Of a stretch of DNA of 64,000 nucleotides, positions 7,910 through 41,828 are shown piece after piece. The stretch comes from Polytrichum commune (taxonomy: Eukaryota > Streptophyta > Polytrichopsida > Polytrichales > Polytrichaceae). The notes beneath the pieces were generated by a model. That model made no database searches. It had not been told where the DNA came from and saw only the letters and a program-made list of their open reading frames with translations. The stretch is from the NCBI GenBank assembly GCA_950295325.1, contig OX485804.1, forward strand, positions 29,638,001 to 29,702,000, written 5' to 3'. Position numbers and translations under genes: made by a program. The first letter of the stretch is position 1. The number at the start of each line of letters is the position of its first letter.

Positions 7910-8764
7910 CTACAAAGTTTGGAACGTCGGCACAACAACCTTTCTTACTTCTTCTAGCACGTGTTGAGTGTTCACGTCGCCATGACGATGAACTTCAAAG
8001 GCAAGTTTGTTGAGGACATTTGAGTGCCAAAATCGCAAAGTTTCACGAGCTTTGGTATCGTTACAAAGGCCGACATAGCAACGGAGAATATAGTTGAGGA
8101 GTTGTGGATCAAATGGTTTGGTTGCGTGCTCCACAAGCATCAAATGCAAGATGTTGGCAATCACTTCTGGATTTGCATCATGAAATTCTTCATTTGATTC
8201 TGCACAAATGTATGCTAAACCCACGTTACTTACAATGATCTTCATCAACACGTAAGTGGCCAGTCGCTTCGAAAGCATACCGCCAATTGTCATAATTCTT
8301 AGACAAGGAGGGATGATATCCATGTGATTGGCATGCATGCCCACAAGAAACTTGACTCCTTCCACATTGTTTCCATGCACCAGGGCTTTTAAAACTCCGA
8401 GGCTCGAAAGTCGAAGGTACTCGAATGGTGGTGTCTTGTTTCTTGTATTGAGAAATGGGCACAAATAGTAAGGCATTTGTGCACGTAAGAAAAAAACTCG
8501 AGTGTATGGACATGAAACCACGCATTGGAACAAATTCAAAACGTTGCAAACTTGAGTCGAGGCATACAAGGTGAGCGTGGGTGGAGATAACATGCCATAA
8601 ATCGATTGAATTTTGGTGATGAGAGTTGTTATAGTGGTTGGTGAACGCCATAGATGAAGAGCTATTTTTTGATAATCATCTTTTTTTTTGAAAAGCTCTC
8701 GGGCAGCATTATCGCATTTCTCCGGTAGGATGAGCTCTGAAACCAAGTGTTCAACAGTCGACAT
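7910..8764 (-). CDS. CNOT9/RCD1 (CAF40)-like protein, intronless, 284 aa
   Basis: An uninterrupted 284-codon frame matches the CNOT9/Rcd1 armadillo-repeat family along almost its full length (human CNOT9 is about 300 aa). Recognisable family blocks, in order, are NAARELFKK, LHLWRSPTTITTLI, SPPTLT, TRVFFLRAQMPYYLCPFL, PPFEYLRLSSLGVLKALV, IIPPCLRIM, LSKRLATYVLMKII, GLAYIC, LLNYILRCYVGL and ARETLRFW. CNOT9 is a core CCR4-NOT subunit that links the deadenylase complex to RNA-binding partners. A short insertion lies between the ALV block and IIPP. Plant CNOT9 genes normally have introns, so a single-exon copy suggests retroposition, and the open frame suggests recent origin or selection. A (TA)n run at about 8897-8920 could supply a TATA element. 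No intron-bearing parent lies in this window. Expression is unknown. Confidence 0.85.
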   Translation of the reverse strand: MSTVEHLVSELILPEKCDNAARELFKKKDDYQKIALHLWRSPTTITTLITKIQSIYGMLSPPTLTLYASTQVCNVLNLFQCVVSCPYTRVFFLRAQMPYYLCPFLNTRNKTPPFEYLRLSSLGVLKALVHGNNVEGVKFLVGMHANHMDIIPPCLRIMTIGGMLSKRLATYVLMKIIVSNVGLAYICAESNEEFHDANPEVIANILHLMLVEHATKPFDPQLLNYILRCYVGLCNDTKARETLRFWHSNVLNKLAFEVHRHGDVNTQHVLEEVRKVVVPTFQTL

Positions 8765-9169
8765 TGTTTTCCTACTTGCTCATTCAATACCCCAAATCAA
8801 CCCTTTGTTGTTATAAACCTCATGTAAACTTCACAACAATTTTTTTTATGTAACCCACTTTCTTACTCTTGATGAAAGTTATGAAGTTAAGAGTTATATA
8901 TATATATATATATATATACCCACTTAAAGTTCTCTCCAACTTTTATGTTTTGATTTAAATCCTTATATAAAGACTATTATTATTTTCTTTTTCTTTTTCT
9001 TTTTTATAGTGTGTTTATTTTCATTCACTCGTTTTCCGTTTTTCATGATTATCAAAAATTCAAAGATGAACTGAAGTAGTAAAATTGATAATTCAATACT
9101 TTCACAATTCGAGCTTTTAACAAATGTCATTGATTGTTCTGTCACATGAGGTGACATCGGGGGCTAAGT
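8765..9169. other. Intergenic spacer with (TA)n microsatellite at 8897-8920
   Basis: AT-rich spacer with no gene. It holds a pure TA run followed by a CTTTTT-rich tract near 8990-9005. Confidence 0.5.
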
Positions 9170-10128
9170 CGCGTCAATTTAGGAGTAAATGGACTCCACT
9201 AGGAGTCCATGTGTGTTGGGATGAGTAACGGACTCCATTGGGAGTCCTAGTTAGTTGTTCATCCACTCCATGGATGAACTCCACATAGGATTGGGGTTGT
9301 ATGGAGAGGAAGGCCTCTTGACTTGCCATTGTTGTCAAGTCAAGTATTGTGAGTGTGTTTTGAGAGAGAGAGAGAGCTTGTTGCTGCTTTCTCATGGCTA
9401 TGGTGTAGTAGATTATGAGTAAAGCCTTTGCATTCTTTCTCCACCACTTGCACTCTTGGATTCTCCCTTCGTGGAGTGAGAGATAGCTTGACTCTTGTGT
9501 GTGAATTTTAAAGTTTCTTAAGCTTTGTAAGGAGACATTTTAGTTTCTTAAGCTTGGAGAGAGAAACCCTCATACTTGACAACAATGGCTCAAATTTTTC
9601 ATTTTTTGGTTGTATTTCTGAGCTAGAATGGCCCAGTATTGAGAGCAAATGAGTGATACAAGTGTTTGAAAGCTTAGTTTGTCATTTCTTGCAACCCTCA
9701 AGAAGATTTTGAGAGAAATCTTCCCATTTTTTCTTTTGTTGTCTCTTTGTGTTTTCTTCAAGTGTTGATGGTTGAATCTTGAGATTCCTTTTGGTCTCAA
9801 GATTCTCAAGTCACATCATTCTTGCTTGCAATTTGTAAAAGCAAAGTTTATTTTTTTAAAAAAATTTACAAACAAACACAAACCAAACTTAAAATCCGAA
9901 TTTTTTATAATTCTTTTTTTGAGCTCCGGAGCTCCACGGACACTCTTGGAGCTCTTGGAGCTCCTGGAGCTCCAATTCTGCACCCCGAACGGCGGCAGAT
10001 CCCGGGCCAGGGGCGGGCGGGCGGCGCCAGCCGGGCCCCGCGGCGAGGTGGCAGCGGGCCGGGCCGGGGGCGGGCGGGCGACAACCTGGCCGAGGTGGCG
10101 GGTGGCGCCAGCCTGGCCCCCCCTTTAA

Positions 10129-10345
10129 GGTAAGTTAGTTACCTATGCTAACTAACTAGTTACTCCTTTCTAACCAGTTAATTAGTTAGTTACCTAAGTT
10201 AGTTAATTAAGTTAGTTAGTTAATTTAGTTAACTTAGTTAACTTAGTTAATTTAGTTAGTTAATTTAGTTAATTTAGTTAATTAGTTAAAGTTAATTAAG
10301 TTAGGTGGAGTTAAATTAAATTAATTAAGTTAATTAAGTTAATTA
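10129..10345. repeat. GTTA/TTAA low-complexity tract
   Basis: The tract is built almost entirely from GTTA, TTAG and TTAA units with irregular phase. It is non-coding and lies immediately 3' of the GC-rich block. Confidence 0.75.
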
Positions 10346-10488
10346 ATTTTTTTGTTTTTGTTTTTGTTTTGTTTAATTGAAACAATTATTTATTTATTAT
10401 TTATATTATTTATATTATTTTATTTTCACATTTTTACTTTCACCTTTCAAACTTGGCATCCAATTCTCACAAACTTTGAGGCTCAAAT

Positions 10489-10780
10489 TTGGGGGCATAC
10501 TAGCTCCGATTGGAGTGAAATTTGAGCCTATCTTGTGTGAAATTTGCCAAGGAATCCAATGGTGTAATTGGATTGTTGATTGGAATTCAAAATCATTGCT
10601 GAAATTATTAATTTCAACGCTGATTTTTGTTTTTGGGAGCAAATTAACTCCAAACGGAGTGAAATTGGAGCCTAATTTGTGTGAAATCTTCCTAGGAGTC
10701 CATTGGTGCACTTAGTTTGTTGATTGGAGTCCATAATCACCTTGGAAATGAGCCTTTTCAAACGCTGATTTTCCATTTTA
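10489..10780 (+). repeat. Two-copy tandem repeat, about 145 bp
   Basis: Both copies share GGAGTGAAAT followed by GAGCCTA, TTGTGTGAAAT, GG(A/G)(A/G)TCCA, TTGTTGATTGGA and AACGCTGATTTT. The copies start near 10490 and 10635. It lies in the leader of the gypsy element, just before the CACTA insertion site. Confidence 0.65.
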
Positions 10781-11199
10781 ATTACCAACACTACTAGAAA
10801 ATCATGACCAAATCAACAAAAAATCAACAGATCTTTGTCGATCCGGGCAATGCAATGACCGATTTCACTGATTTTTGAATTTTTGTAAAAATCAACAGTT
10901 TACTGCCTACATTTTTGTTGATTAGAATAGTACAATGACCAAATCAACAAAATTTTAGTAAATGTGGAATCTTTTTTGGAATATTCTAGGATCTATTGGA
11001 ATATTGTAAAATCTTTTTAATTTTTTGCAATTTATGGACTTGTAAGTGTATGGGTATGGAAATAATTACGAATTCAAAGGTGTGTAAATATTATAAATAT
11101 TATATTAGTTGATAATTAATATTATATATATATGTATATATATATTAATATATTAAGATATATATGTATATGAATTAATATTAATATGTATAATATGTA

Positions 11200-11575
11200 T
11201 ATATATAATATATGTAACATATATGTAACATATATGTAACATATATGTATATAATATATGTAACATATATGTAACATATATGTATATAATATATGTAACA
11301 TATATGTATACAATATATGTAACATGTATGTATATAATATATAATATATAAATATGTATACATTTACAGTAAATATATACAGTATATAATTACTGTAATT
11401 ATATACAGTATATATTTACTGTAATTATATACAGTAAATATTTACTGTAAGTATATACTGTATATATACTGTAATTATATATTGTAATTATATATTGTAT
11501 ATATTTACTGTAATTATATACTGTAATTATATACTGTAATTATATACTGTATATATTTACTGTAAATATATACAT
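11200..11575. repeat. AT minisatellites inside the CACTA element
   Basis: At 11200-11345 the sequence is an array of ATATGTAAC-type units. At 11360-11575 it is an array of TACTGTAATTATA and TACAGTAAATA-type units. Apparent Tyr/Ile-rich ORFs here are products of the repeat. Confidence 0.75.
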
Positions 11576-11644
11576 CAAGTAGGTAGTAAAGAGAAAATAG
11601 TGGCCTTATTCTAGAAAGGTTTAAAACACTCCATTTATATCATG

Positions 11645-11850
11645 TGTGATGTGATGACCTAGTGGTTAAGGCACATGTATGGGTGTCACCAGGTGCAAGG
11701 TTTGATTCCCGTGGCCGACATGTTCGGCCTTGGGCTTGCCACCTATGTGAGTGGTAGGTAGTCTATACTTGTAGGTGAGGTATAGGTTGAGGGTTACTTG
11801 GGAGGAGTTAGGAATTGCATATATGACATTTATTCATTTTTAAAATTTTA
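11645..11850 (+). mobile_element. tRNA-derived SINE-like sequence nested in the CACTA element
   Basis: A box A-like TAGTGGTTAAGG at 11660-11671 is followed at tRNA-like spacing by a box B-like GGTTTGATTCC at 11699-11709. An unrelated body and an A/T-rich tail follow. The cloverleaf is not complete enough for a functional tRNA gene. The 3' limit is uncertain. Confidence 0.55.
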
Positions 11851-12165
11851 ATGTTATATATATATATATATATAATAAGTTTTTTTTAAAAATATTTTTG
11901 TGACCATATCAACAGAAAAAATCAACATAATTGTGTTACATCATGTCCAGGTCAACGCGTCCTAAGTAACAACCGCGACCAACGCCTTTCTGTTGATCCG
12001 GACGCAGAATTTTCTACTAGTGCAATCTCAAACCTTTGCACAATTTTGGAATTCTGGGGGCATAAACACTTGGCATTTGGCAAGGGATTGCCATTTAGAT
12101 AGCCCGCAACAGGTGCAGGTTGCCATTACCTTGTAGATAGTTGCAGGTATTCAAGTGATTATTTT

Positions 12166-14484
12166 ATGGTGCAAACTAGGAGCCGATATTATCGATCTCC
12201 ATCACCAGATTACTTGGAGGACGTGCATACCACAAATCTTGAGCCAGAGGTAGATACCAACGAGGCTTTTGAGCCTATTTCGGCGTTGGACACTACTAGT
12301 AGGCTTCGGATTTGGAGTGTCGGCACGTTCGACGAAATGGAGGACGATCGCCACAATTCAATGCGTGATCGGTTTTCAGGTCGAGCTGGGGGCATTTCCT
12401 TGCCCGATTGGAAACTCCGGTTTCGTACCTGGATTAAGGAGAAACGCCAAAGGTCTTCCAATTTCAATGATTGGTATGCCTTTGAACTTCTGCCTCAACA
12501 TTTGGAGTATGAGGCACTTCAAACTTATGAACGCTGGACAGAGGGTCATCAGCGACAACTTCGGGAGGTGGAGCAGTATTGGGAGGCTCGGGTTGAGCTC
12601 ATTTCAGGCCTTAAGGATGGGGCGGTTGCTACCTTAGCACCACCCACCTTAAAGGAGGAGGAATCGCCGGCGGAGTCTAAGGACACGGAACTGGCACTTG
12701 GGCCAATGGTGGCTAGTAGTAGCACGACAACCCTTTCACGGGTGGCACGTGCTACACAGGCAGCATTGACGGCTGTTGGTCCACCACCTCCGTTTAATCC
12801 CCTTACTGAATTTGTCGCACATTTGGAAGTAGAGTATGGTGGGTTCCGGCGAGACCAGATGCAGCGCATCCAGGATTTCCGCCAAGAGAAGGATGATACT
12901 CCACGGACCATGTATACGCGACTCGCGCGATTTGCTGTGGAGTCGGGAGGTGTTTTTGCTGAGAGTCAGCTTGTTAAAATCTTTTTGTCTAAGATTGACA
13001 AGCGGCTACTTGAGTTGGCATCACCTCGGATTATCCTCGACTACGAGGGCCGAGCTACGCTTGCACAAGCGTTTGCCGTAGTTGAGAGATGTGATCGGGC
13101 CCTTTGCCAACATGATGCCACGGATATGGTATCTTGGATGACAGAGAGTCCGAAACCAAGAAGAATTGTCACAGCTACTAGTAGTTTAGCTGAGACTCAA
13201 CCCGTCAAGGAGCAAAAGATTTTGCATTGTTGGGGTTGTGGAGAAGCTGGTCATTCGAAGAATGATCCCAATTGTCCTAAGAAGAAGAAAACTCAGCCTT
13301 TGGGAAAATTAAAACAAAAGATGGAACCAGTAAAGGCAGGGGACAATTCTAAGAAGAGACAATTGAAATGTAACCATTGTGGTGGCACTAATCACGATGT
13401 GGATCATTGTTTCCAACTTCATCATGAGATGCGGCCTGCCAGTTATATCATTGGAAAGTCTCCAAGGGAGCAGAGTCTTGAGGCTAAGGTGGCAGAGCTT
13501 GAGCAAAAGCTCAAATCTTCTACATCTTTTGCTCAAATTTCTGAGCCGCATGTGGGTGGTGGCACCTCGGGTTCGGACATGTATATGTTTGGAGCAGCTG
13601 GAGAGGTGGTGGCGGCGGCTTCTACTCGCTCACAAACATTGGCAGATGCGGTGGCTTCCACGAGTGGTGGTAGCAATGAGGTGCTACATCCTCGCCATGC
13701 CGGACCAGCTGATCAAATTGGTCAAGCACGTTTACCTCTTTCATTTGGATTGGTAGACACCACTGTTGTTGGGGCTAAAAACCTTGTACCTTTGAGAGAT
13801 GGGGATTCCATCTCGAAGGATGTTACGCAGGCATTGGTATATAAAATTCTCCATATACCAATTTTCTCGGGTTCGGAGTTTATGGCTTCGGATTTCAAGC
13901 CTGCTGCAGTTTTTCATTTAGCTGGGAGAGTGTTAGAAGGTAAGGCGGATTTGCCATCCCTTCAAGTATCCCAAGCTGTGGTTGACGTACATGTGGCTGA
14001 GGAGGTGGAGGACTTAGCCAATTTGCAAGCGAGTCTTGCGGATGCGGCGATCATTGCTTTTGGTAAGCAAACTGATATTCCTCCAGCGTCAATTTCAGCA
14101 GTGGATACGTCATTTTCGAATTATGCGTCGGGAGCGGCATATCTTGCAGACATTTCTGCAGGGCCTGCTCGCGAACGGCATAATTTGCAACCTGGAATTG
14201 TACGGCTGATGAACGACAAATCTTTGTTTGTCATTTCACGCACGGATATGCCCACTATCCGTGCTACACCACTGAGAGTTATGATGGATTCTGGTGCTCA
14301 ACCGGTTATGATTGGCAAAGGACTTGCTGACAGTCTTGGATTGACGCCAGTAAGCTTGGATCCTTGTCCATTCACTATTGTGACTTCAGTAGGGGGCACT
14401 GAACGTGCAACCGGTTACACCAAAACACCTCTACGTTTGATTTTTCATTTGGGGCAGGGCCTACTTACACTCATTTGTCAATGA
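12166..14484 (+). CDS. gag-pro: gag-protease of the gypsy element (772-codon frame)
   Basis: This open frame begins MVQTRSRYYRSPSPDYLEDV. The first 330 or so residues resemble a gypsy gag/capsid. A knuckle-like CWGCGEAGH...C segment lies at 13228-13275 and a canonical CX2CX4HX4C knuckle (CNHCGGTNHDVDHC) at 13369-13410. A short predicted coiled coil (EAKVAELEQKLKSS) follows. The protease signature is MMDSGAQPVMIGKGLADSLG, with DSGA at 14287-14298, the single Asp expected of a homodimeric retropepsin. The frame ends at 14484 only because of a shift near 14455-14475; protease-like sequence continues in the neighbouring frame. Gag would package element RNA and the protease would cut the polyprotein. 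Confidence 0.85.
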   Translation: MVQTRSRYYRSPSPDYLEDVHTTNLEPEVDTNEAFEPISALDTTSRLRIWSVGTFDEMEDDRHNSMRDRFSGRAGGISLPDWKLRFRTWIKEKRQRSSNFNDWYAFELLPQHLEYEALQTYERWTEGHQRQLREVEQYWEARVELISGLKDGAVATLAPPTLKEEESPAESKDTELALGPMVASSSTTTLSRVARATQAALTAVGPPPPFNPLTEFVAHLEVEYGGFRRDQMQRIQDFRQEKDDTPRTMYTRLARFAVESGGVFAESQLVKIFLSKIDKRLLELASPRIILDYEGRATLAQAFAVVERCDRALCQHDATDMVSWMTESPKPRRIVTATSSLAETQPVKEQKILHCWGCGEAGHSKNDPNCPKKKKTQPLGKLKQKMEPVKAGDNSKKRQLKCNHCGGTNHDVDHCFQLHHEMRPASYIIGKSPREQSLEAKVAELEQKLKSSTSFAQISEPHVGGGTSGSDMYMFGAAGEVVAAASTRSQTLADAVASTSGGSNEVLHPRHAGPADQIGQARLPLSFGLVDTTVVGAKNLVPLRDGDSISKDVTQALVYKILHIPIFSGSEFMASDFKPAAVFHLAGRVLEGKADLPSLQVSQAVVDVHVAEEVEDLANLQASLADAAIIAFGKQTDIPPASISAVDTSFSNYASGAAYLADISAGPARERHNLQPGIVRLMNDKSLFVISRTDMPTIRATPLRVMMDSGAQPVMIGKGLADSLGLTPVSLDPCPFTIVTSVGGTERATGYTKTPLRLIFHLGQGLLTLICQ

Positions 14485-14980
14485 AGTGTGTTGTCACTAA
14501 TGCTACCAACTATGGTATACTTGTTGGTCAGCAAGCTCTTTACCCACTTGGTTTTGGTTTGGATAATTGGACGGAAGAGGCATGGATTAGACCGGGATGG
14601 TCCACTGGAGATGGCAAGAAGGTATTTATTCCCGTCACATTTACAGCCACTGCTATGACTATGGTTGCGGAGGCAATGTTTGGTTGCAGCGGTTCAGTTG
14701 CAGATTTGCCTTGTGCTCCAGTTTTATTGGAGGAAACAATGGACTACACTTGTAATGCGGTAGAACAACAATTTTTACCATCTTTTCAAATTCATGCTCG
14801 ACATTTCAAGGATCCACCTCCACCATGGCGAACTCCTAAGGAGTTATCCGACCATTGTCAACACATTGTAGCGGATTTGGAGCTTGGAGAAGCACCTCCA
14901 TCTTCATCCTCATTTTCTTTTGCTCAACCCATTCGTTGGCAACCATCACCTCAAGGTATTGTCCTTGTGGAGATCTTTGG
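14462..14980 (+). pseudogene. Displaced-frame linker between protease and methyltransferase
   Basis: Between the protease and the methyltransferase the coding signal jumps to another frame (open 14475-15161). Protein-like sequence includes YGILVGQQALYPLGFGLD, as expected downstream of a gypsy retropepsin, then a low-complexity Ser stretch and the start of methyltransferase motif I (VLVEIFGG at about 14961-14984). The signal returns to the original frame within about 14976-14985. The simplest reading is a one-base loss near 14460 and a one-base gain near 14980. Confidence 0.7.
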
Positions 14981-16242
14981 CGGCAGTGTTGGAAGCTGGA
15001 ATTACAGTTTGGCGATATATTCATGTGGACAATGGATATGCAGCCAACAGAGCCGTCCGACACCACATCCAACAATTGTTGTTGAGATACCCCGCACAAT
15101 TGTCAGCCTCTGCCATTCATGGATGTTGTGGTCAACTTCCTCAAGATGTCACTATGATTAGTGATGAGGATTTGAGAAGGTTGGGCCACGTGGATTTGAT
15201 TATTGCAGGATGGCCTTGTCAAGGCCATTCGCGGGCAGGAACTGGCCATGGATTGGATTATCCTAGGTCTAGTTTGTTTGCGGATTTGATGCGATTGACG
15301 CAATGGTGGTTTACCCACCAATCAATTCCGCCAGGGTACATTTTCGAAAATGTACCATTATTGGGTGATACCCGGCACAAAGTGGTGAAGGATGGTGAGT
15401 ACATTAACCAAATTCTGGGTACTCCAACATTTATGGATGATGCATCTTTGGGATCCTTTGCTCATCGGCCTCGTTGGTTTTGGACCAACTTAGTATCACC
15501 TCGGGTGCTTTCAGCGGCGATTGCCCGCATTCTCCGCCTTATGGATCGCAAGGTCGATGACATTTTAGATGATCATCGTGTTTCCTTGGCAGTTACCAAA
15601 GATGACACCTTGCCATTTGCATTAATTAACAAGGTGGGAATTCCGAGAGGTGCACTACCTACTTTTGTGACATATCCACAGTCTTTTGCATTTCGATCTT
15701 GTGAACCTGGCATGGTTTGGGATTCAAAATCCCAAACTTATGAGGAGCCTACGGCAGATGAGCGGGAACGCGCCATGGATTTTCTTACAGGTACCATGGC
15801 TGCTCACGGGCTTCAGGAAGGTCAGAGACATTTCCTATTGGGACAAGCTATGGATCTTCATAGCATTGTGTGGATAATTGGAATTTGTCTTGCTGCTCAA
15901 CAACGTATGGATGACCAATTGCTTACTCTGAGGGCAGAGAACAATGGTCAGGGGCCAATGGAGCCGCAATCCAAAGATCACATTGAGGTCAATGACACCG
16001 ATGGATTATTTCGTTTGAAACTTCATGTTGCGGAAGAGCTTCGAGCCCAACGTATTTTTTCGGCTTTGGTCCAAGAGTTTGGGAAGTTGGAGGCCCATAA
16101 AATGTTTCCACTTCTATTTCTTGGTGATACTTCATATATGGGTAGTTATTTAGCTACACAAACTGATTGTAGTGGAGAGGATACGCATTTGGATTCAAGT
16201 GCAGATGATGGGGGCAAAGGTGTTGCCCTCTCCACGGACTAG
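14955..16242 (+). pseudogene. C5-cytosine DNA methyltransferase domain captured in the gypsy polyprotein
   Basis: Motif order matches the DCM/Dnmt family. Motif I is VLVEIFGG (split by the frameshift). Motif IV is LIIAGWPCQGHSRAG, with catalytic Cys in PCQ at 15214-15222. Motif VI is FENVPLLGD, with ENV at 15346-15354. A motif VIII-like HRPRWFWTNL lies at 15463-15492, and a motif X-like HFLLGQAMDLHSIVWII starts near 15826. The FW(T/G)N variant recalls Dnmt3/DRM enzymes more than Dnmt1 (inference). Such enzymes transfer methyl from S-adenosylmethionine to cytosine C5. The sequence between motifs I and X is intact. It is broken only by the frameshift at motif I and the TAG at 16240-16242 before RT. 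Position inside a retroelement polyprotein implies element-borne activity rather than a host gene. Confidence 0.85.
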
Positions 16243-17283
16243 CAATCACAGGCTGTGCTGGCACCAAGTGGCAATCCTTCTATGAAGAAGGAAACCACGG
16301 AGTTTGACGATTGGCCAATTGAAGTGAGGCCAAAGCTTACTGGTGCCGAAGCACGAAAGGTACGTGCATTTATTCGCTCTTACCGTAATTGTTTTGCCTT
16401 TAGTCTTCATGATCTTGAAGGATATAAAGGTAAACCTGTTCGTATTCAACTCGAGGACGACCACCCTATTTTCAGACGGCCGTACAGACTTAGTACATCT
16501 GAAAGGTTGGGTGTTCAAACTCGATGTCAAGAATTATTGGCAGCGGAATTGATTGAACTCTCCAATGGAGAGTATGCTTGTGCCACGGTTATGCCATCAA
16601 AGAAGGATATCTTTGGCAACTGGACGGAAAAACGGATGTATGGTGATTATCGTCCAGTCAACCGCAAGACCAAGTCGGATCGATATCCAATGCCGATGCC
16701 GGAGGAGTTGTTTGATGCACTGGAATTTTCTAGAATCTTCAGCATTCTAGATTTGAGGTCTGGTTATCACCAATTACCTTTGTTGTTGGGTGATTGGGTG
16801 AAGACCGCATTTTGGGGAATTGATAAAGATGGCAAGGATCAACTTTATCATTGGAAATTTCTGCCATTTGGTCTCAAGAATGCACCAGCTAAATTTCAAC
16901 GGGTGATGGACCAATTATTGGCTGGTTTGCCGTTTGCTAGATGTTACATTGATGATGTTATCATCTTTAGTAATAGTCCACAGGATCATGTGAGACATTT
17001 GCAAGCGGTATTTAAACGACTTCAACGATGGGGACTCCGTTTACATCATGGAAAATGTAAGTTTTTCCATGATCAATTGCCCTATTTAGGCCACATGATT
17101 GTTCATGGCGGTCTTGGTGTGCAACAAGCGATGGTGGATGTTTTGCACAAAATTCCCGCACCTAGTGATGTACCACGGCTTCGTGCATTTTTAGGATTGG
17201 CAAATTATCATAGGAGATTTGTCAAAAACTTTAGTTTGATTGCCAAACCTCTTACCATTCTTACGGGGAAAAACCAACCATGA
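16243..17283 (+). pseudogene. pol (RT): Reverse transcriptase domain of the gypsy element
   Basis: The frame continues from the methyltransferase after the TAG at 16240. RT landmarks are MYGDYRPVNRKTKSDRYPMP, ILDLRSGYHQLPL, FLPFGLKNAPAKFQRVMD, the catalytic YIDD at 16945-16956 followed by VIIFS, then YLGHMIVHGG and LRAFLGLANYHRRFVKNFS. All are typical of Ty3/gypsy RT and intact. The frame closes with TGA at 17281-17283, at the RT-RNase H junction, where related elements read through. Confidence 0.9.
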
Positions 17284-17925
17284 ATTTGGAGTCGGGAACA
17301 ACAACAGGCATTTGATACATTGAAGCAGAAGCTCGGTTCAACGCCAGTGCTTCGACGCCCGGATGTGTCCAAAGTTTTTCAATTGCACACGGATTGGAGT
17401 GCAGTGGGATTGGGAGCGGTATTGACACAGAAAGATGAAGAGGGAAAGGAATATGTGGTGGTTTATACATCTAGAAGCAATAATAGTACTGAATCTAATT
17501 ATTCTTCTTATGAAGGCGAGGCCTTGGCAGCCGTTTGGGCCATTGCACATTTTCGACCTTATTTGTATGGGCAGAAGTTTACTTTGGTGACTGATCATCG
17601 GCCTTTAAAATGGCTTATGGAATCAGATAAGCTCACCGGAAAACTTGCTAGGTGGGCATTGTTACTTCAGGAATATGATTTTGAAGTTGTTCACCGAGCA
17701 TGAATTGCCAACTTGGATGCAGACGGATTGTCTCGCAATCCAAGTCCTTCAAATGAGGATTTAACTGAAGCCAGGTGACATGGAGATTGTGATCGTGAGG
17801 CAGTACCGGGTTGGCATGCTGCCACGTATCTCACAATGATGTCGGGATTGCCTGCTGAAATCCTTGTGGAAGAGCAAGATGAGGAGGTTGATAAATCTCT
17901 CGTTGTTAGTGATGTGTGGGAAGAC
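17284..17925 (+). pseudogene. pol (RH): RNase H domain and linker of the gypsy element
   Basis: It shows the gypsy RNase H signatures QQQAFDTLKQKL, LHTDWSAVGLGAVLTQ, YVVVYTSRSNN, YEGEALAAVWAIAHFRPYL, FTLVTDHRPLKWLM and the terminal N(L/A)DADGLSR. In-frame TGAs interrupt at 17701 (inside the HRxGxxNxxAD-type motif) and at 17776. The domain removes the RNA strand during reverse transcription. Confidence 0.85.
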
Positions 17926-17928
17926 TAG

Positions 17929-18900
17929 GCGGTCTTGCACAAACTTCAACAAGGGATATTTCCACTTGGACTATCTTCTATGGAGCGAGATAGAGTTAGT
18001 CACCGGATAACAAGGTTTCGTTGGGCAAACGGCTTGTTATTTCATGTGTGGCCGAACGGAACGAGGCGCATCGTTCCAAGGCCAGATCAAATAGCTTCTT
18101 TGGTGCGGCAAGTGCACGAGGAGCTTGGACATTTTGGAGTGCGAAAGACACACTCTATGTTGCGCAACCAATATTGGTGGACTGGTATGTACCAACAGGT
18201 TGCCACTTATGTTTCTCGGTATGAAGTATGTGACCGGGTCAGGTCAAGTTTTAATACTTTGTCACCTCAAGTTCAGTCTTTACCTATTATTGGCTTGGGA
18301 TATCGTTGGTCTTTGGATTTTGCCGGACCGCTTACTATCACTCCACGTGGTTCCAAGTATGTGCTTGTGATGGTGGAGCATTTTAGTAAGTGAATTGAAC
18401 TCGTGGCTCTTCCCCAAAATTCCTCAGAATTGGCAGCTATGGCATTTTTTGATCGAGTTTTGGCACGGTTTGGAGCACCTGCAGAGGTGTTGACGGATCA
18501 AGGGAGAGAATTCCTTGGATCTTTCGAGGCTTTGTGTACCAAGGCTTTGATTGATCATCGGACAACTTCCAGAGATCACCCTGAGGCAGATGGCTTAGCT
18601 GAACGAGTTGTTCAGACGGTTAAGCGCGGTTTGCGGAAGTATGGATTGCTTCATGGCAACCATCGCGATTGGGACTTGATGTTATCATGGATAGCAATGG
18701 GTTATCGTTTCAGCAGGCAAGCATCTTTGGCATCCTATAGTCCTTACCAACTCTTGTATGGACGGGAACCAATTTTACCTAGCTCGGTGTGAGAGAAATT
18801 GGCTCCCGTGGTAAACTTGCATGATCCAGATGTTTGGGCTCAATGTCTTCATGACCGAGCAACGTTCTTCCAAAAGGCCATGCATATGGCTATGGAGAAC
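17929..18900 (+). pseudogene. pol (IN): Integrase domain of the gypsy element
   Basis: The zinc-binding region reads HEELGHFGVRKTHSMLR, then YWWTGMYQQV, then YVSRYEVC. The first Cys of the usual CxxC is Tyr here, which would damage the HHCC zinc site. The catalytic core is intact: Asp in WSLDFAGPL, Asp in EVLTDQGREF, Glu in GLAERVVQTVKRGL. TGA at 18391 replaces the Trp of the very common FSKW motif. A further TGA lies at 18790, and a TAG at 17926 starts the domain. Confidence 0.85.
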
Positions 18901-19200
18901 TTCAATATTGCTCAACATCGTGATACATTACGGTATGCCCGGATCCGCAGTGGAGCTTATCGACCTCAGGTTCATAGATTTTCCAAGGGAGATTATGTTT
19001 ACTTGCAACGAGAGGCGCCTACTACATTGGATGTCAAGGCTGGGCGCACGATTTTGCGGGTAAAAGATGTCTTGCCAAGTGGTATATTATTGCTTGAAGG
19101 CAAGGATAGACGGGAATGTCGTGAGCATTCAAAGAATTGTGCTCCATGTCACCTTCCCATCGACGGCTCTGTGCATTCCGAGTTGGCGGTTGTACCACAG

Positions 19201-19386
19201 GGTTTGCCTTGTTATGTTTGTGGAGAGAAGAAAGGAGCTGCAACAATGTTATTATGCGACCAATGTCAACATGGATGGCACATGGCATGTTTGATACCTC
19301 CCCTTTTTACTCTTCCTTCTGGCAATTGGGTTTGTCCTCGTTGTTGGAAAGCCTCTCATTCCGTGGCCGTTAATGGTTATGATTGA
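19201..19386 (+). pseudogene. C-terminal PHD finger of the gypsy polyprotein
   Basis: The polyprotein ends with a C4HC3 zinc finger: CYVC, LLCDQC, HGWHMAC, WVCPRC, spaced as in PHD fingers. Many plant gypsy elements carry a C-terminal chromodomain; here the reader position is taken by a PHD finger instead. PHD fingers usually read histone H3 tails, so a role in insertion-site choice or chromatin contact is plausible but inferred. The frame ends at a normal TGA (19384-19386). Confidence 0.85.
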
Positions 19387-19720
19387 GGATTTTGTGGATG
19401 TTTACCACATGTTTTAGTGGTGAAGTTGTTATTTAGTTGGTTGGAAATTTTATGGGATTGAAAATCACATTGAAAGAGTTATCCAAGAATTCAACATAAA
19501 TGGTTGAAGGCGATTAAGGATGGGGCTCAAATTGCACCCAGCCTATAGTTATTGGATTACTTTCTCAATCATGAGTTTAATTCCTTAGATTACCACTACC
19601 CAATTGAATATGTATAGATGTAGCAACAACTTCATCATGTTCAACAACTCTACCGATGAGTGTGTTTGTTCCTAGCCGATTGGAGGGGCTCCTTATCTGC
19701 TAGTGGGGGCACTTGAAGAG
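19387..19720 (+). other. 3' non-coding tail of the gypsy element with polypurine-like tract
   Basis: This region lies after the last codon. AGTGGGGGCAC near 19701-19711 is a candidate polypurine tract for plus-strand priming. The sequence beyond it has no recognisable partner upstream of gag, so the 3' LTR is absent, truncated or too diverged. Confidence 0.4.
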
Positions 19721-21655
19721 GTGGTTGTTTAGCATTTTAGTTTGCTATTTTATTTTGCTAATTGATGTTGACGCCGACAGTCGATCTGTTGTGTTTAACG
19801 ATCTTAGTTTACACGACAGTTCCATGAATTTCAAGTATTCTATTCTTTACATTTGAAATATTCTTTTAGATTTACAATTCTATTAATGTTGTCCATATTG
19901 ATTGCTACAAATTTGGAAAAAAAATTAAAATTTCATGCCATTTATCAATACATTAATTACCATGAGCCATACTATTATGATTATTTTTTTATTTTTTTAT
20001 AATAATAAATATATGTAGATAATTTTTTATAATTAAGAATCCATAGTAACAATTTCAAATTTATCAAACCCCATCGGTGTGTGATAAGTAACATTGACTA
20101 TCAACCCACACTAACAATACTAATTTGTATAGTGTCTAAATGTAATACCCAAACATAATTAAAAAATTAAAAAAATTATTCTAATTTTTTAATAAAATGA
20201 TTCTAATTTTTAAAGTTTGGCAATTTGGCAGGTAGTTAATGGCTCATTGTCTGGACAATGTTCAAGGAAATTTCTTTTTGAGTAACCGCATAGTCTGTAA
20301 TTGCCATGAATTATGCTTACAATAATCTCAAAGTTGAATTCTCTTAATCAACTTACAATCACCAGGCAATTATGCACAATTATAATCACCACCTTTGTCT
20401 TCAGTGACCCAACAACTTGTCTCAAGTATCACTCACATGAGTTGATGCAACAACAACACCTCAACAAGATAGGCTAGATCATTTATAATATGATTTATGT
20501 TGTTTTGTGTGCTCAAATGGTCTTCATTGGATACAAACTTACTCCGGTGGGATAAAATCTTCTTTCTACCAAGGTAATGTCCTTGGCAACCCATAGCCTA
20601 CCCAAAGTAACTTTGTGCATCATCATTTCTACATGTAGACTCATTGCCTACTGTGGCAAGGTGTACTAAACCTAGTAGCCTATATCCTGGTTGCATTCTT
20701 ACCCTTCGGTCTAAACTCAAGGCAATAGCCACTACTCTCCCACTCAATCTTTCTTTTTGATTATTGCCTCAAATTAACTTGACTATAATCAATATGAATT
20801 TAGCAACTTCTCATTACTTTGCTTATAGCCTCGAAAATTCACTCCCATACCTCAATGCTCAAAGCCTTCCCTTTTACACATAGCACAACTTCACTCAATT
20901 CCAATTGCAGAGTTCAACAATCGACATTCTATGCATCTAGACAATTGCAGAAGTAACACGTTCATTCATTCTCATGTCATAATTCAATCATAAAGTTATG
21001 AAGTCCGAATCACTCGGTCCCATTAAACTATGTCTATCCTCGAGTCTTTGCTTGGGATTAACCCTATCAACTATACCACCGATCTCAATCGTTGAACCAT
21101 GAATCTCCAACTCAAAATAATGTGTTTAAGATGAAAACAAATGGGCAAATTAGACCTTGTGTTGAGTTTAAAATTTAGCCTCTTGCTCTTTAAGGGTTAA
21201 TTACAAATTAAAGTTTTGAATTTGATATAATCTTATTTTAGTATAGTAAATATATTTTTGTTTATATGCAAAGAGGTATTGTTAATTTCAAATTCTATGT
21301 TTATAAAGTAAACAACAAAATTTGATTAATAGATACTACATTGATTTTATTCTAGTAGTTTATAGTTGTTGATCAAACATACAATATTATATAAATTCAT
21401 TAACATTATAGTTTATTGATTCAAAACACATCTTATGTAACAATACAAATAGAAGTAAGTCAACACAAGGGTTAACAACCCTATAGGTCAAATAACGCTA
21501 CGAAGTAAAATTCCAATTTTTTATAATGAAAACGTTAATCCAATACAAAATTCACAAGATCTAAATTTTGGTTGTACATAAATTTAACAAATTTTCATAT
21601 TTCAATATATCATGTATATTTTTTTGAAACTAAAAATAATTAAAATTATTCTCAG
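19721..21655. other. AT-rich intergenic stretch, nothing recognised
   Basis: I see no coding region, RNA gene or clear transposon ends on either strand. Short T-rich and A-rich runs occur near 19980-20010 and 20160-20210. Confidence 0.4.
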
Positions 21656-39337: not shown

Positions 39338-40526
39338 AGTCTTTGTTTCGACCTGCGAATGTGAGAGTTTAGATAGAGAATATTACGGATCTAATGAATT
39401 GAAAATGAGAGAAATTCTGAGAGTTTTCCAGCCAGGATTTTCCATTTCATCCGTTCTGTGTCATCATGAATTCCATCACACTCATTCGTGTAAGTATATA
39501 TCTATGTCTACATCTCTACATATATATTTAGAAGGTGTAATTGTTTCATGTTTCATGGAACTCAATTAACTAGAGTTCCATACCAGAGATTTATCGTGTG
39601 GACGGAACAAACAGAAACAGTGGAACTAAAGAGAACTATATTAAAACATGGCATGGGGAATACAAAGAACTAATAGAGGAGATCGTCTACAGGTTGCTGG
39701 TGTTGGGTCTTTGCTCAATCTCTTTAGGAACTCATGGAGGGGTGATTCATGGGTAGAACAATAGACATTGACTGCAGGCTCAAGGTAGTGTTGTAATGGG
39801 GCAATTCTTCATCAAAGTAGTCTTTGAGATTTCTTGACGAAGTGATTTCTTGCGCAGCCTAAGATACGGATTGAATTTGTTGTGACGAGAAATTTATATG
39901 CTCATAGTGGGTACCATCCTAGAGAAGAGGACCTGTAGCACTCCATGGAGTGTCTTAGGAGTCCTGTTTCTTTTGGAGTGCTGGATGTCTCTACACACTC
40001 AAAATGTAGTGAAATATTTAGTGACAAAAAATTTATATGGTGATAAAGGAATCCATCTTTTAGTGTTCAATATCTTAGTTGGTTTGTGTAAATCCAAGTA
40101 AATTGAAGCTATGGAGCTTTGTTTTTGAGCAGGAATGTGTGAACATACTGACAAATCAAGTGGCATATGCATCAGTAGAACAACTTCAGATTCTATATAG
40201 GTATAGTTCCAAGATTCTCTCTTGAAGTTTTTGTTGTGCTTGTTCTTTGGTGGGAGTGTGAAGTTGACCATTTGTTGCCAATGTGTTGTTTCTTCTGCAA
40301 TCCGGTAAACTTGCGTAGCGATGATTCTCATGGAAATGTAATTTATTGTCAATTTGTATAAGTGATTCTATGAGTCTAGGTACTGATGAGATTTGATGTT
40401 GTTTTCGCCATCTAAATGCTTATTGTTCTTACATAAATTGCAGTAGTAGAATCCACATTGAGGGAAGTGCCAACTTAATTAGTTGGGAGGTATTCAATTC
40501 CTCTCTTCCTCAACAAGTCGGCAACA

Positions 40527-41828
40527 ATGGCAGGTGGAGCTCCAGTTGGGAACATTTCAGCTACTAATATTCCAACAGGCAGAAAGGCTTTGTACCCACT
40601 CATTCTTGTCACGCTACTTTTCTTCATATGGGGTTTTGCATATGGATTGCTTGATGTTCTGAACAAGCACTTCCAAGACGTCCTCCATTTGAGCAAACTT
40701 CAGAGTACTGGTCTCCAAGTGGCCTACTTTGGTGCATATATCGTCTTTCCTCCAATTGTTGGCCAACCTATTGTACGGAGATTTGGATATAAGGTCTCAA
40801 TCTTAGTTGGTCTTGGACTTTACACTACTGGAGCGTTACTTTTTTGGCCCTGTGCGACTTACGAGAGTTTTCTAGGTTTCGTTGGCGCAACTTTCGTCAT
40901 TGCGTGTGGATTGTCAAGTCTCGAAGTTGCGGCAAATACATATGTTACAGTTTTGGGCAGTCCTACAACATCTTCATTCAGATTGAATTTTTCTCAGTCA
41001 TTTAATGGGTTGGGTAGTTTCGCCGGGCCTTTGATCGCATCCAAGTATTTCTTTTCTTCTGGAAATGAGAATAATCTTTCTTCGGTGAGATTTGTCTACC
41101 TCGGTATAGCTTGTGGAGTTTTCGTCATTGCGATTGGATTTTTCTTCGCCAATCTACCAGAGATTACAGATGACATGATGTCCGAAGAATCGAATGTTCC
41201 CACAAAGCCATTGTTGAGACAAAGACATTTCCTAGGTGGAGTGTTGGCGCAATGGTTGTATGTTGCTTCACAAGTTACAGTAGCTACATTCTTCATCAAC
41301 TTGGTGAATGAGGATGGGGTCAAGAATAGTTCAAAGGCCTCTCAACTACTCTCCTATTCATTGCTCCTCTTCACCGCCGGTCGATTCACCTCAACGTTCT
41401 TGATGAGATTCTTCCAGCCCAGGCACATTATGGGTGTTTTTGCCATTCTTTGTACTCTTCTCTGCGCATTAACTGTTGGGCTTCATGGAGTAGGAGGAGT
41501 AGTATGTGTTATGATGCTTTTTTTCTTTGAGTCATGTCAATATCCGACAATCTTCACACTAGCTCTTCAAGATCTAGGAGGAAATACCAAGAAAGGGGGA
41601 GCTTTTGTTGTGATGGGTGTTGGTGGCGGTGCCATTTTCCCTCCTATTGAAGGAGCGATTGCTGATCGTCACGGTACAAGGATCGGCCAAATCATTCCAA
41701 CGATTGGATACTCATACCTCATCTTCTATGCTTTCTTCCTTGCCAAAGCACCAACTCCAAAGGTCGACATTGAGACCGATCAAAATGGAGGCAAAGTGGA
41801 GAAGGCTAGTCAGGCGGTTGAGCTTTGA
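40527..41828 (+). CDS. FucP-like major facilitator transporter (433 aa, single exon)
   Basis: The intact frame encodes about 12 hydrophobic segments. Segment 1, FFIWGFAYGLLDVLNKHFQ, contains Asp43, and segment 4, GLSSLEVAANTYVTVLG, contains Glu133. These fall where E. coli FucP has Asp46 and Glu135, the proton/sugar-coupling pair. Other family blocks are QVAYFGAYIVFPPIVGQPIV, NFSQSFNGLGSFAGPLI, GGVLAQWLYVASQVTVATFF, and FESCQYPTIFTLALQDLG near the C-terminus. The family carries L-fucose or related sugars with protons; substrate here is inferred only. The start at 40527 gives a short soluble N-terminus before segment 1. A probable 5'UTR intron acceptor (AAATTGCAG) lies near 40443. The lack of coding introns and the likeness to fungal/bacterial FucP proteins rather than common plant sugar carriers suggest horizontal acquisition in the lineage. 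Confidence 0.85.
   Translation: MAGGAPVGNISATNIPTGRKALYPLILVTLLFFIWGFAYGLLDVLNKHFQDVLHLSKLQSTGLQVAYFGAYIVFPPIVGQPIVRRFGYKVSILVGLGLYTTGALLFWPCATYESFLGFVGATFVIACGLSSLEVAANTYVTVLGSPTTSSFRLNFSQSFNGLGSFAGPLIASKYFFSSGNENNLSSVRFVYLGIACGVFVIAIGFFFANLPEITDDMMSEESNVPTKPLLRQRHFLGGVLAQWLYVASQVTVATFFINLVNEDGVKNSSKASQLLSYSLLLFTAGRFTSTFLMRFFQPRHIMGVFAILCTLLCALTVGLHGVGGVVCVMMLFFFESCQYPTIFTLALQDLGGNTKKGGAFVVMGVGGGAIFPPIEGAIADRHGTRIGQIIPTIGYSYLIFYAFFLAKAPTPKVDIETDQNGGKVEKASQAVEL

Follow-up and report, generated by a model that had tools for sequence, protein, structure and literature searches.

What does a retroelement gain from a cytosine DNA methyltransferase of its own? Since cytosine methylation is how plants silence retroelements, one that brings along a de novo-type enzyme of its own turns the usual picture round. 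Such an element lies in the 64,000-nucleotide stretch of Polytrichum commune DNA analysed here (the window). The reading that we favour, with a probability of roughly 0.5, is that a moss-type Ty3/gypsy family carries a DNMT3-type methyltransferase behind Gag and protease and before a predicted leaky UAG, and that this enzyme would most likely methylate the element's own cDNA in or near the particle, so that insertions arrive pre-marked.

A decayed gypsy element and its methyltransferase domain

Positions 9140-19818 of the window form a single decayed Ty3/gypsy-type element on the + strand, in the order gag-protease-methyltransferase followed by reverse transcriptase-RNase H-integrase-PHD finger, between two copies of a 4-bp target duplication (GTTC; 9136..9139 and 19819..19822, no strand assigned). 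The element begins with a terminal repeat A (9140..9579, +), which starts with TGTCAC and is 98% identical to the A of a complete genomic copy. The leader between repeat A and gag (9580-12100) abounds in AT-rich and tandem repeats, and a portion of it is common to other copies (match over 9138-10788, 87%). ORF1 starts at 12166 (start codon placed by eye), and its Gag and protease part runs until the first frameshift-induced stop (12166..14481, +). This part includes Cys/His zinc-knuckle-like motifs at about 13220-13415 (+; recognized by eye, with only a weak PF16278 match) and a retropepsin with the residues DSGAQ at about 14260-14450 (+), for which the PF13650 match is weak (E 0.00064, below the curated cut-off, ending at about 14409). 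The final part of ORF1 (14931..16239, +) consists of the cytosine methyltransferase domain, of predicted DNMT3 type, and a less conserved tail. ORF2 starts immediately behind a TAG and, until its first lesion stop (16243..17283, +), encodes the reverse transcriptase (RVT_1 5.6e-30, from about 16624). It continues with RNase H (17290..17700, +; PF17917 5.9e-39), an integrase interrupted by stops (17929..18789, +) with an H2C2 zinc domain (1.6e-16) and a DDE-type rve core (1.8e-05, below the curated cut-off), and a PHD finger at the integrase C-terminus (19210..19344, +; PF00628 8.1e-11). A G-rich polypurine-tract-like stretch (19702..19711, +) immediately precedes terminal repeat B (19712..19818, +), whose final letters are ACACGACA. 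Scanned against Rfam and for tRNAs, the window gave no matches. A short way to the left of the element lies a segment of an Rcd1/CNOT9-type gene (7913-8776, -; one open frame, PF04078 2.2e-70).

The order protease, reverse transcriptase, RNase H and integrase with an rve core is that expected of Ty3/gypsy (Metaviridae-type) elements. An intact relative, L045 (CADCWO010000201.1), presents the same domain order over two long open frames, with an rve match of 1.2e-13 and a PHD match of 4.3e-10. Its record belongs to a desert-crust metagenome bin labelled cyanobacterial, yet the sequence is that of a moss-type retroelement, and the assembly is circular with identical ends of 127 bases; P0002, a relative named Candidatus Obscuribacterales, looks like a similar misfiling.

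The methyltransferase was recognized by PF00145 (C5 DNA methylase, E 1.3e-10) on the frame 14872-16239. Its position between retropepsin and RVT_1, all on the + strand, agrees with the first-pass annotation, which had described a methyltransferase captured on one strand and in essentially one frame: gag, methyltransferase and reverse transcriptase share one frame, apart from a short stretch between two frameshifts (about 14450 to 14980). The residues PCQ (15214..15222, +; motif IV, Pro-Cys-Gln with the catalytic cysteine), ENV (15346-15354), RPRWFWTN (15466-15489) and LLGQAMDL (15835-15858) were read from the sequence. In the domain and its relatives, the motifs follow the linear order I, IV, VI, VIII, X and match the C5-methylase profile. 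The copy is dead, with two frameshifts in ORF1 and six in-frame stops in ORF2. One of the frameshifts is a short out-of-frame deletion, relative to other copies, through methyltransferase motif I, which is present in the relatives, and the motif I noticed earlier is thus a remnant. The TAG at 16240 does not count among the lesions: the other copies examined have it too.

Copies, relatives and split terminal repeats

The host genome (407.8 Mb, 64 contigs) was searched and the best 93 of 715 candidate places were scored. All 93, the window's own included, have the methyltransferase segment (88-100%), which rules out a chance insertion unique to the window copy. Because scoring was confined to the best candidates, these counts are lower bounds and have little bearing on copies without the domain. 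Open frames were recovered as well: at 15 of the 93 places a frame of 1386 codons is free of stops, and at no fewer than seven of these (matched by hand) an open 1047-codon ORF2 comes directly behind it. When the 20 best reverse transcriptase copies were compared by hand, 19 had a methyltransferase match just upstream and none was listed close by for the twentieth. A second family of this genome, whose reverse transcriptase is closer to that of L045, carries the methyltransferase in all four stretches examined (60-62% identical to L045).

Protein searches returned 42 and 35 relatives, mostly metagenomic. Those bearing names come from Calypogeia fissa, Sphagnum troendelagicum and Marchantia polymorpha (several gene models), together with Closterium, for which the match spans a quarter of the query. 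The land-plant setting suggested earlier is supported by these bryophyte relatives and by a host gene in the window whose best named match is a Ceratodon purpureus protein (81% identity), which together point to a moss as the most likely host. This gene (40479-41825, +) is an intact single ORF for a transporter of FHS/L-fucose-permease type, which matches moss proteins first (Ceratodon, 73-81%) and then mainly fungal named proteins (46-55%); an old transfer from a fungus to a moss is possible. In four distant relatives (P0069-P0072) the methyltransferase stands directly before the integrase-PHD part rather than before the reverse transcriptase, its position behind RNase H being clear for P0069 and P0071; either the domain moved or a second capture took place.

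The ends of the element combine features of two groups of retroelements. TG...CA ends and a short target duplication are present, as in Ty3/gypsy (Metaviridae-type): each of the six copies for which both ends could be placed has a 4-bp duplication (CATC, ACTT, TAGC, GAAG, AACG and, in the window, GTTC); the right end of a seventh copy was not located. Instead of two identical LTRs at the element ends, genomic copies present A1 (about 440 bp, starting with TGTCAC), the coding region, B1 (about 107 bp, with the same end as in the window and a G-rich tract immediately 5' of it), A2 and B2. This A...B-A-B form was seen in four copies; the window copy and one more have A...B alone, without A2-B2, which explains why no ordinary LTRs were found within the window. 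Split direct repeats A1...B1-A2-B2 belong to the definition of DIRS/PAT elements given in PMC4157794. The tyrosine recombinase that is also a DIRS/PAT feature is not among the families listed in the Pfam matches of the window or L045, where rve was found instead. The moss element thus has DIRS-like split repeats, yet a retroviral-type integrase and 4-bp target duplications.

The B1-A2 joint reads CACGACA-GC-TGTCAC in all four copies and in L045 and is palindromic, as expected if two unprocessed ends had been joined. We infer that an integrase acting at the GACA/TGTC joint would convert one-repeat circles into A...B and two-repeat circles into A...B-A-B. The A...B form could also arise from an A...B-A-B copy if its B1 and B2 recombined, so that what is seen in the window fits both routes. 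In three of four copies A1 and A2 show no substitution relative to each other, and in the fourth they show two, which indicates that the family moved recently. A plant iMet primer-binding site was looked for in L045 and not found.

Class and history of the enzyme

A profile built from 15 relatives and compared with the PDB scored 77 bits with DNMT3A, 47 with DRM, 36 with HaeIII, 33 with HhaI and 32 with DNMT2, and neither DNMT1 nor CMT appeared among the 57 matches listed. The AlphaFold2 model of the L045 domain (mean pLDDT 85.5) was used for a Foldseek search, in which the best 50 of 193 hits (E up to 0.001) were all DNMT3A/B/C, the best with an E of 1.1e-17. The C5-methyltransferase fold that had been proposed is recovered in this prediction, with DNMT3A/B closest, and by profile, sequence and modelled fold the predicted enzyme is of the DNMT3 class. 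Its linear motif order sets it apart from the rearranged DRM-type enzymes. Motif IV is PCQ in most rows of the alignment, with ECQ and ECK variants in distant rows; in the window's family, 29 of 30 genomic loci retain PCQ and 28 retain ENV.

These figures bear on the idea that the domain is a particle part for nucleic-acid binding or RNA methylation, DNMT2-like or a chaperone, rather than a DNA methyltransferase. Its location in the Gag-side polyprotein would suit such a role, and some retroelement DNMTs show no DNA activity in yeast (PMC5890265), but the retention of PCQ and ENV and a DNMT3 score far above that of DNMT2 make us consider it quite unlikely.

The moss host DNMT3 genes (PpDNMT3a/b, PMC6453930) have, like the element, a DNMT3-type domain with linear motif order. 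The host's own DNMT3 gene (L102, C7:33955200-33958700), which has PCQ in motif IV, differs by containing introns and gives short matches only to the element's domain. In a 41-row tree, a branch supported at 100/99 separates the 39 element domains from the host DNMT3 and human DNMT3A, which are just two outside rows, both under half filled and long-branched. A search for host DNMT3 through DUF3444 led to an ORF (L079) that looked DnaJ-like, and the stretches upstream of the split matches L096 and L097 had no methyltransferase match. A bacterial or phage origin was also rejected, the DNMT3 score being far above those of the bacterial enzymes and the 44 matching IMG/VR loci covering the core stretch only, at 23-55% identity; a single-sequence scan of IMG/VR gave no relative.

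Between families, the methyltransferase core shows a dN of 0.20-0.28 against a saturated dS; the tail is looser (dN 0.48, dS 1.57) and the reverse transcriptase tighter (dN 0.086, dS 1.56). Comparisons of recent copies with one another give a dN/dS of 0.45-0.49 in the methyltransferase (190 and 55 pairs) versus 0.21 in the reverse transcriptase (55 pairs). The relaxation within young copies is what one would see if the domain were a passenger, a neutral capture without function. This we hold to be very improbable, because the domain is kept across mosses, liverworts and other lineages with invariant catalytic columns, and because core dN is low against saturated dS between families. As to co-inheritance, the protease and methyltransferase trees (21 rows) have 9 of 18 splits in common, including a Marchantia-Sphagnum group and the moss-type group, although the protease tree is weakly supported.

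CpG in the element (0.71) is not depleted relative to its flanks (0.43 and 0.39). Nor do copies with more stops have significantly lower CG or CWG counts (rho -0.34, p 0.064; rho -0.19, p 0.31); the stop count is a rough measure of age that includes frameshifted copies. Methylation-driven decay was dropped for lack of a significant trend with stop count, and past methylation of the copies is thus not visible in their sequences.

A predicted leaky stop and the proposed role of the enzyme

At the end of the methyltransferase, UAG is followed by CAR YYA in all 35 copies examined, from three families. In the window's family, the 30 genomic loci (window included) have TAG followed by CAA TCA (29) or CAA CCA (1), and L045 has TAG CAA TCA. 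The second family has TAG CAA TTA in four of four stretches; these four sites were found by the motif search itself, and the frame ends exactly at the motif in L099-L101, that of L098 being broken just before it. Twenty proteins from other contigs (P0001-P0006, P0013, P0043-P0048, P0050, P0051, P0053-P0057) stop at the aligned place, as judged by eye at the protein level only. In the distant relatives P0063 and P0066, the methyltransferase is continuous with the reverse transcriptase, without a stop. UAG with CAR YYA is described as the type I readthrough signal in PMC11166343, and PMC2754532 reports for tobacco mosaic virus that the hexanucleotide is essential and that about 10% of ribosomes read through. 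The TAG with its next six bases (16240..16248, +) is thus a predicted leaky stop of the kind found in the tobamovirus replicase, and it places the methyltransferase on the Gag side. Soybean SIRE1 (PMC2829016) offers a precedent for stop-codon suppression in a plant retroelement; there suppression serves to express an env-like protein, whereas the stop of the moss element divides methyltransferase from reverse transcriptase.

The TAG might instead be an ordinary stop, with ORF2 expressed through a second start, a subgenomic RNA or splicing. Readthrough is predicted here from the motif, and the hairpin with outer GUGG/CCAC pairs that is predicted some 25-55 bases 3' of the stop in the three families (window 16275-16300, with equivalents in L045 and L101) is significant by shuffling in one of them only (z -1.45, -3.36 and -0.39, the significant family being that of L045). 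We see little likelihood in an ordinary stop all the same, given that CAR YYA follows TAG in three families whose cores differ in about 40% of their amino acids, that its chance is 1 in 512 per site if equal base frequencies are assumed, and that ORF2 begins directly after the TAG in the same frame.

If the stop leaks, the methyltransferase would be produced with Gag, and readthrough would yield Gag-protease-methyltransferase in excess over reverse transcriptase-integrase. On the favoured reading, the protease would then release the methyltransferase, which would be packaged together with the cDNA and would act on it within or just outside the particle. The benefit might be that pre-methylated cDNA is taken for host DNA and survives, or joins silent chromatin, where it does the host little harm; the PHD finger may help in this. 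Such self-methylation has a precedent in PMC5890265, where CG methylation in yeast is reported for DNMT3 domains of DIRS-type elements and self-methylation of cDNA is proposed. It is consistent with the DNMT3 class, the number of copies with open frames, the recent activity, the constraint between families, the leaky-stop motif in 35 of 35 copies and the co-inheritance of protease and methyltransferase. Against it stand the weaker constraint on the methyltransferase than on the reverse transcriptase among recent copies, the CpG content of the element, which gives no support, and the KnitGypsy methyltransferase, which did not methylate in yeast, a result that its authors call inconclusive (same source).

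The enzyme could also act in trans, restraining its own element or aimed at the host: it would silence related copies or disturb host methylation, thereby keeping the load tolerable or opening other sites. Both ideas are raised in PMC5890265, many open-frame copies could supply the enzyme, and two families with the methyltransferase coexist in the host genome. Its fusion behind Gag and protease is, by contrast, the place for a particle component, the only chromatin-reading domain predicted (the PHD finger) lies on the integrase side, and the Klebsormidium methylome is described there as not unusual; we therefore regard action in trans as unlikely. A far-reaching extension of self-methylation seems to us somewhat less doubtful than this: in an old split-repeat gypsy lineage maintained by mosses and liverworts and akin to algal elements, a DNMT3 encoded on the Gag side, before a leaky UAG of the tobamovirus kind, would be loaded into every particle, the cDNA would be methylated before integration and insertions would be born silenced and unnoticed, while the GACA-GC-TGTC joint would be a stored integrase site from which one-repeat circles give A...B and two-repeat circles A...B-A-B.

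The capture of methyltransferases by retroelements of algae, mentioned in the first-pass annotation, is documented in PMC5890265. KnitGypsy-Dnmt3 of Klebsormidium nitens has gypsy domains, an intronless, non-rearranged DNMT3-type domain and DIRS-like direct repeats, with the DNMT in the Pol ORF and under purifying selection. By this published description, rather than by sequence, the moss element shares the combination of gypsy domains, DNMT3 domain and DIRS-like repeats, but its DNMT ends the Gag-protease ORF, before the UAG, instead of lying in the Pol ORF of a charophyte element. SymbioDIRS-Dnmt3 and SymbioLINE-Dnmt of dinoflagellates (same article) are also retroelements with a cytosine methyltransferase, of DNMT3 type in SymbioDIRS; they use a tyrosine recombinase or LINE machinery, unlike the moss element with its rve integrase and target duplications. 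Retrotransposon DNMT3s in streptophytes are mentioned as previously reported in PMC12344493, and according to a 2019 article (PMC6338049) land plants such as tracheophytes lack transposons that encode a methylase. In the literature on bryophytes we found no description of such a case, and subscription papers or supplements may hold more. Methyltransferase capture by a gypsy element is therefore already known in an alga, and what is new here is a variant form, documented in bryophytes.

A moss-type genome thus harbours an abundant and recently active methyltransferase-bearing family, with relatives in liverworts and Sphagnum. The repeat arrangement poses a puzzle, that of a retroviral-type integrase handling DIRS-like ends, and the predicted leaky stop makes a concrete, measurable claim on the amount of enzyme. 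Because mosses are tractable, what a retroelement gains from a methyltransferase of its own is directly testable.
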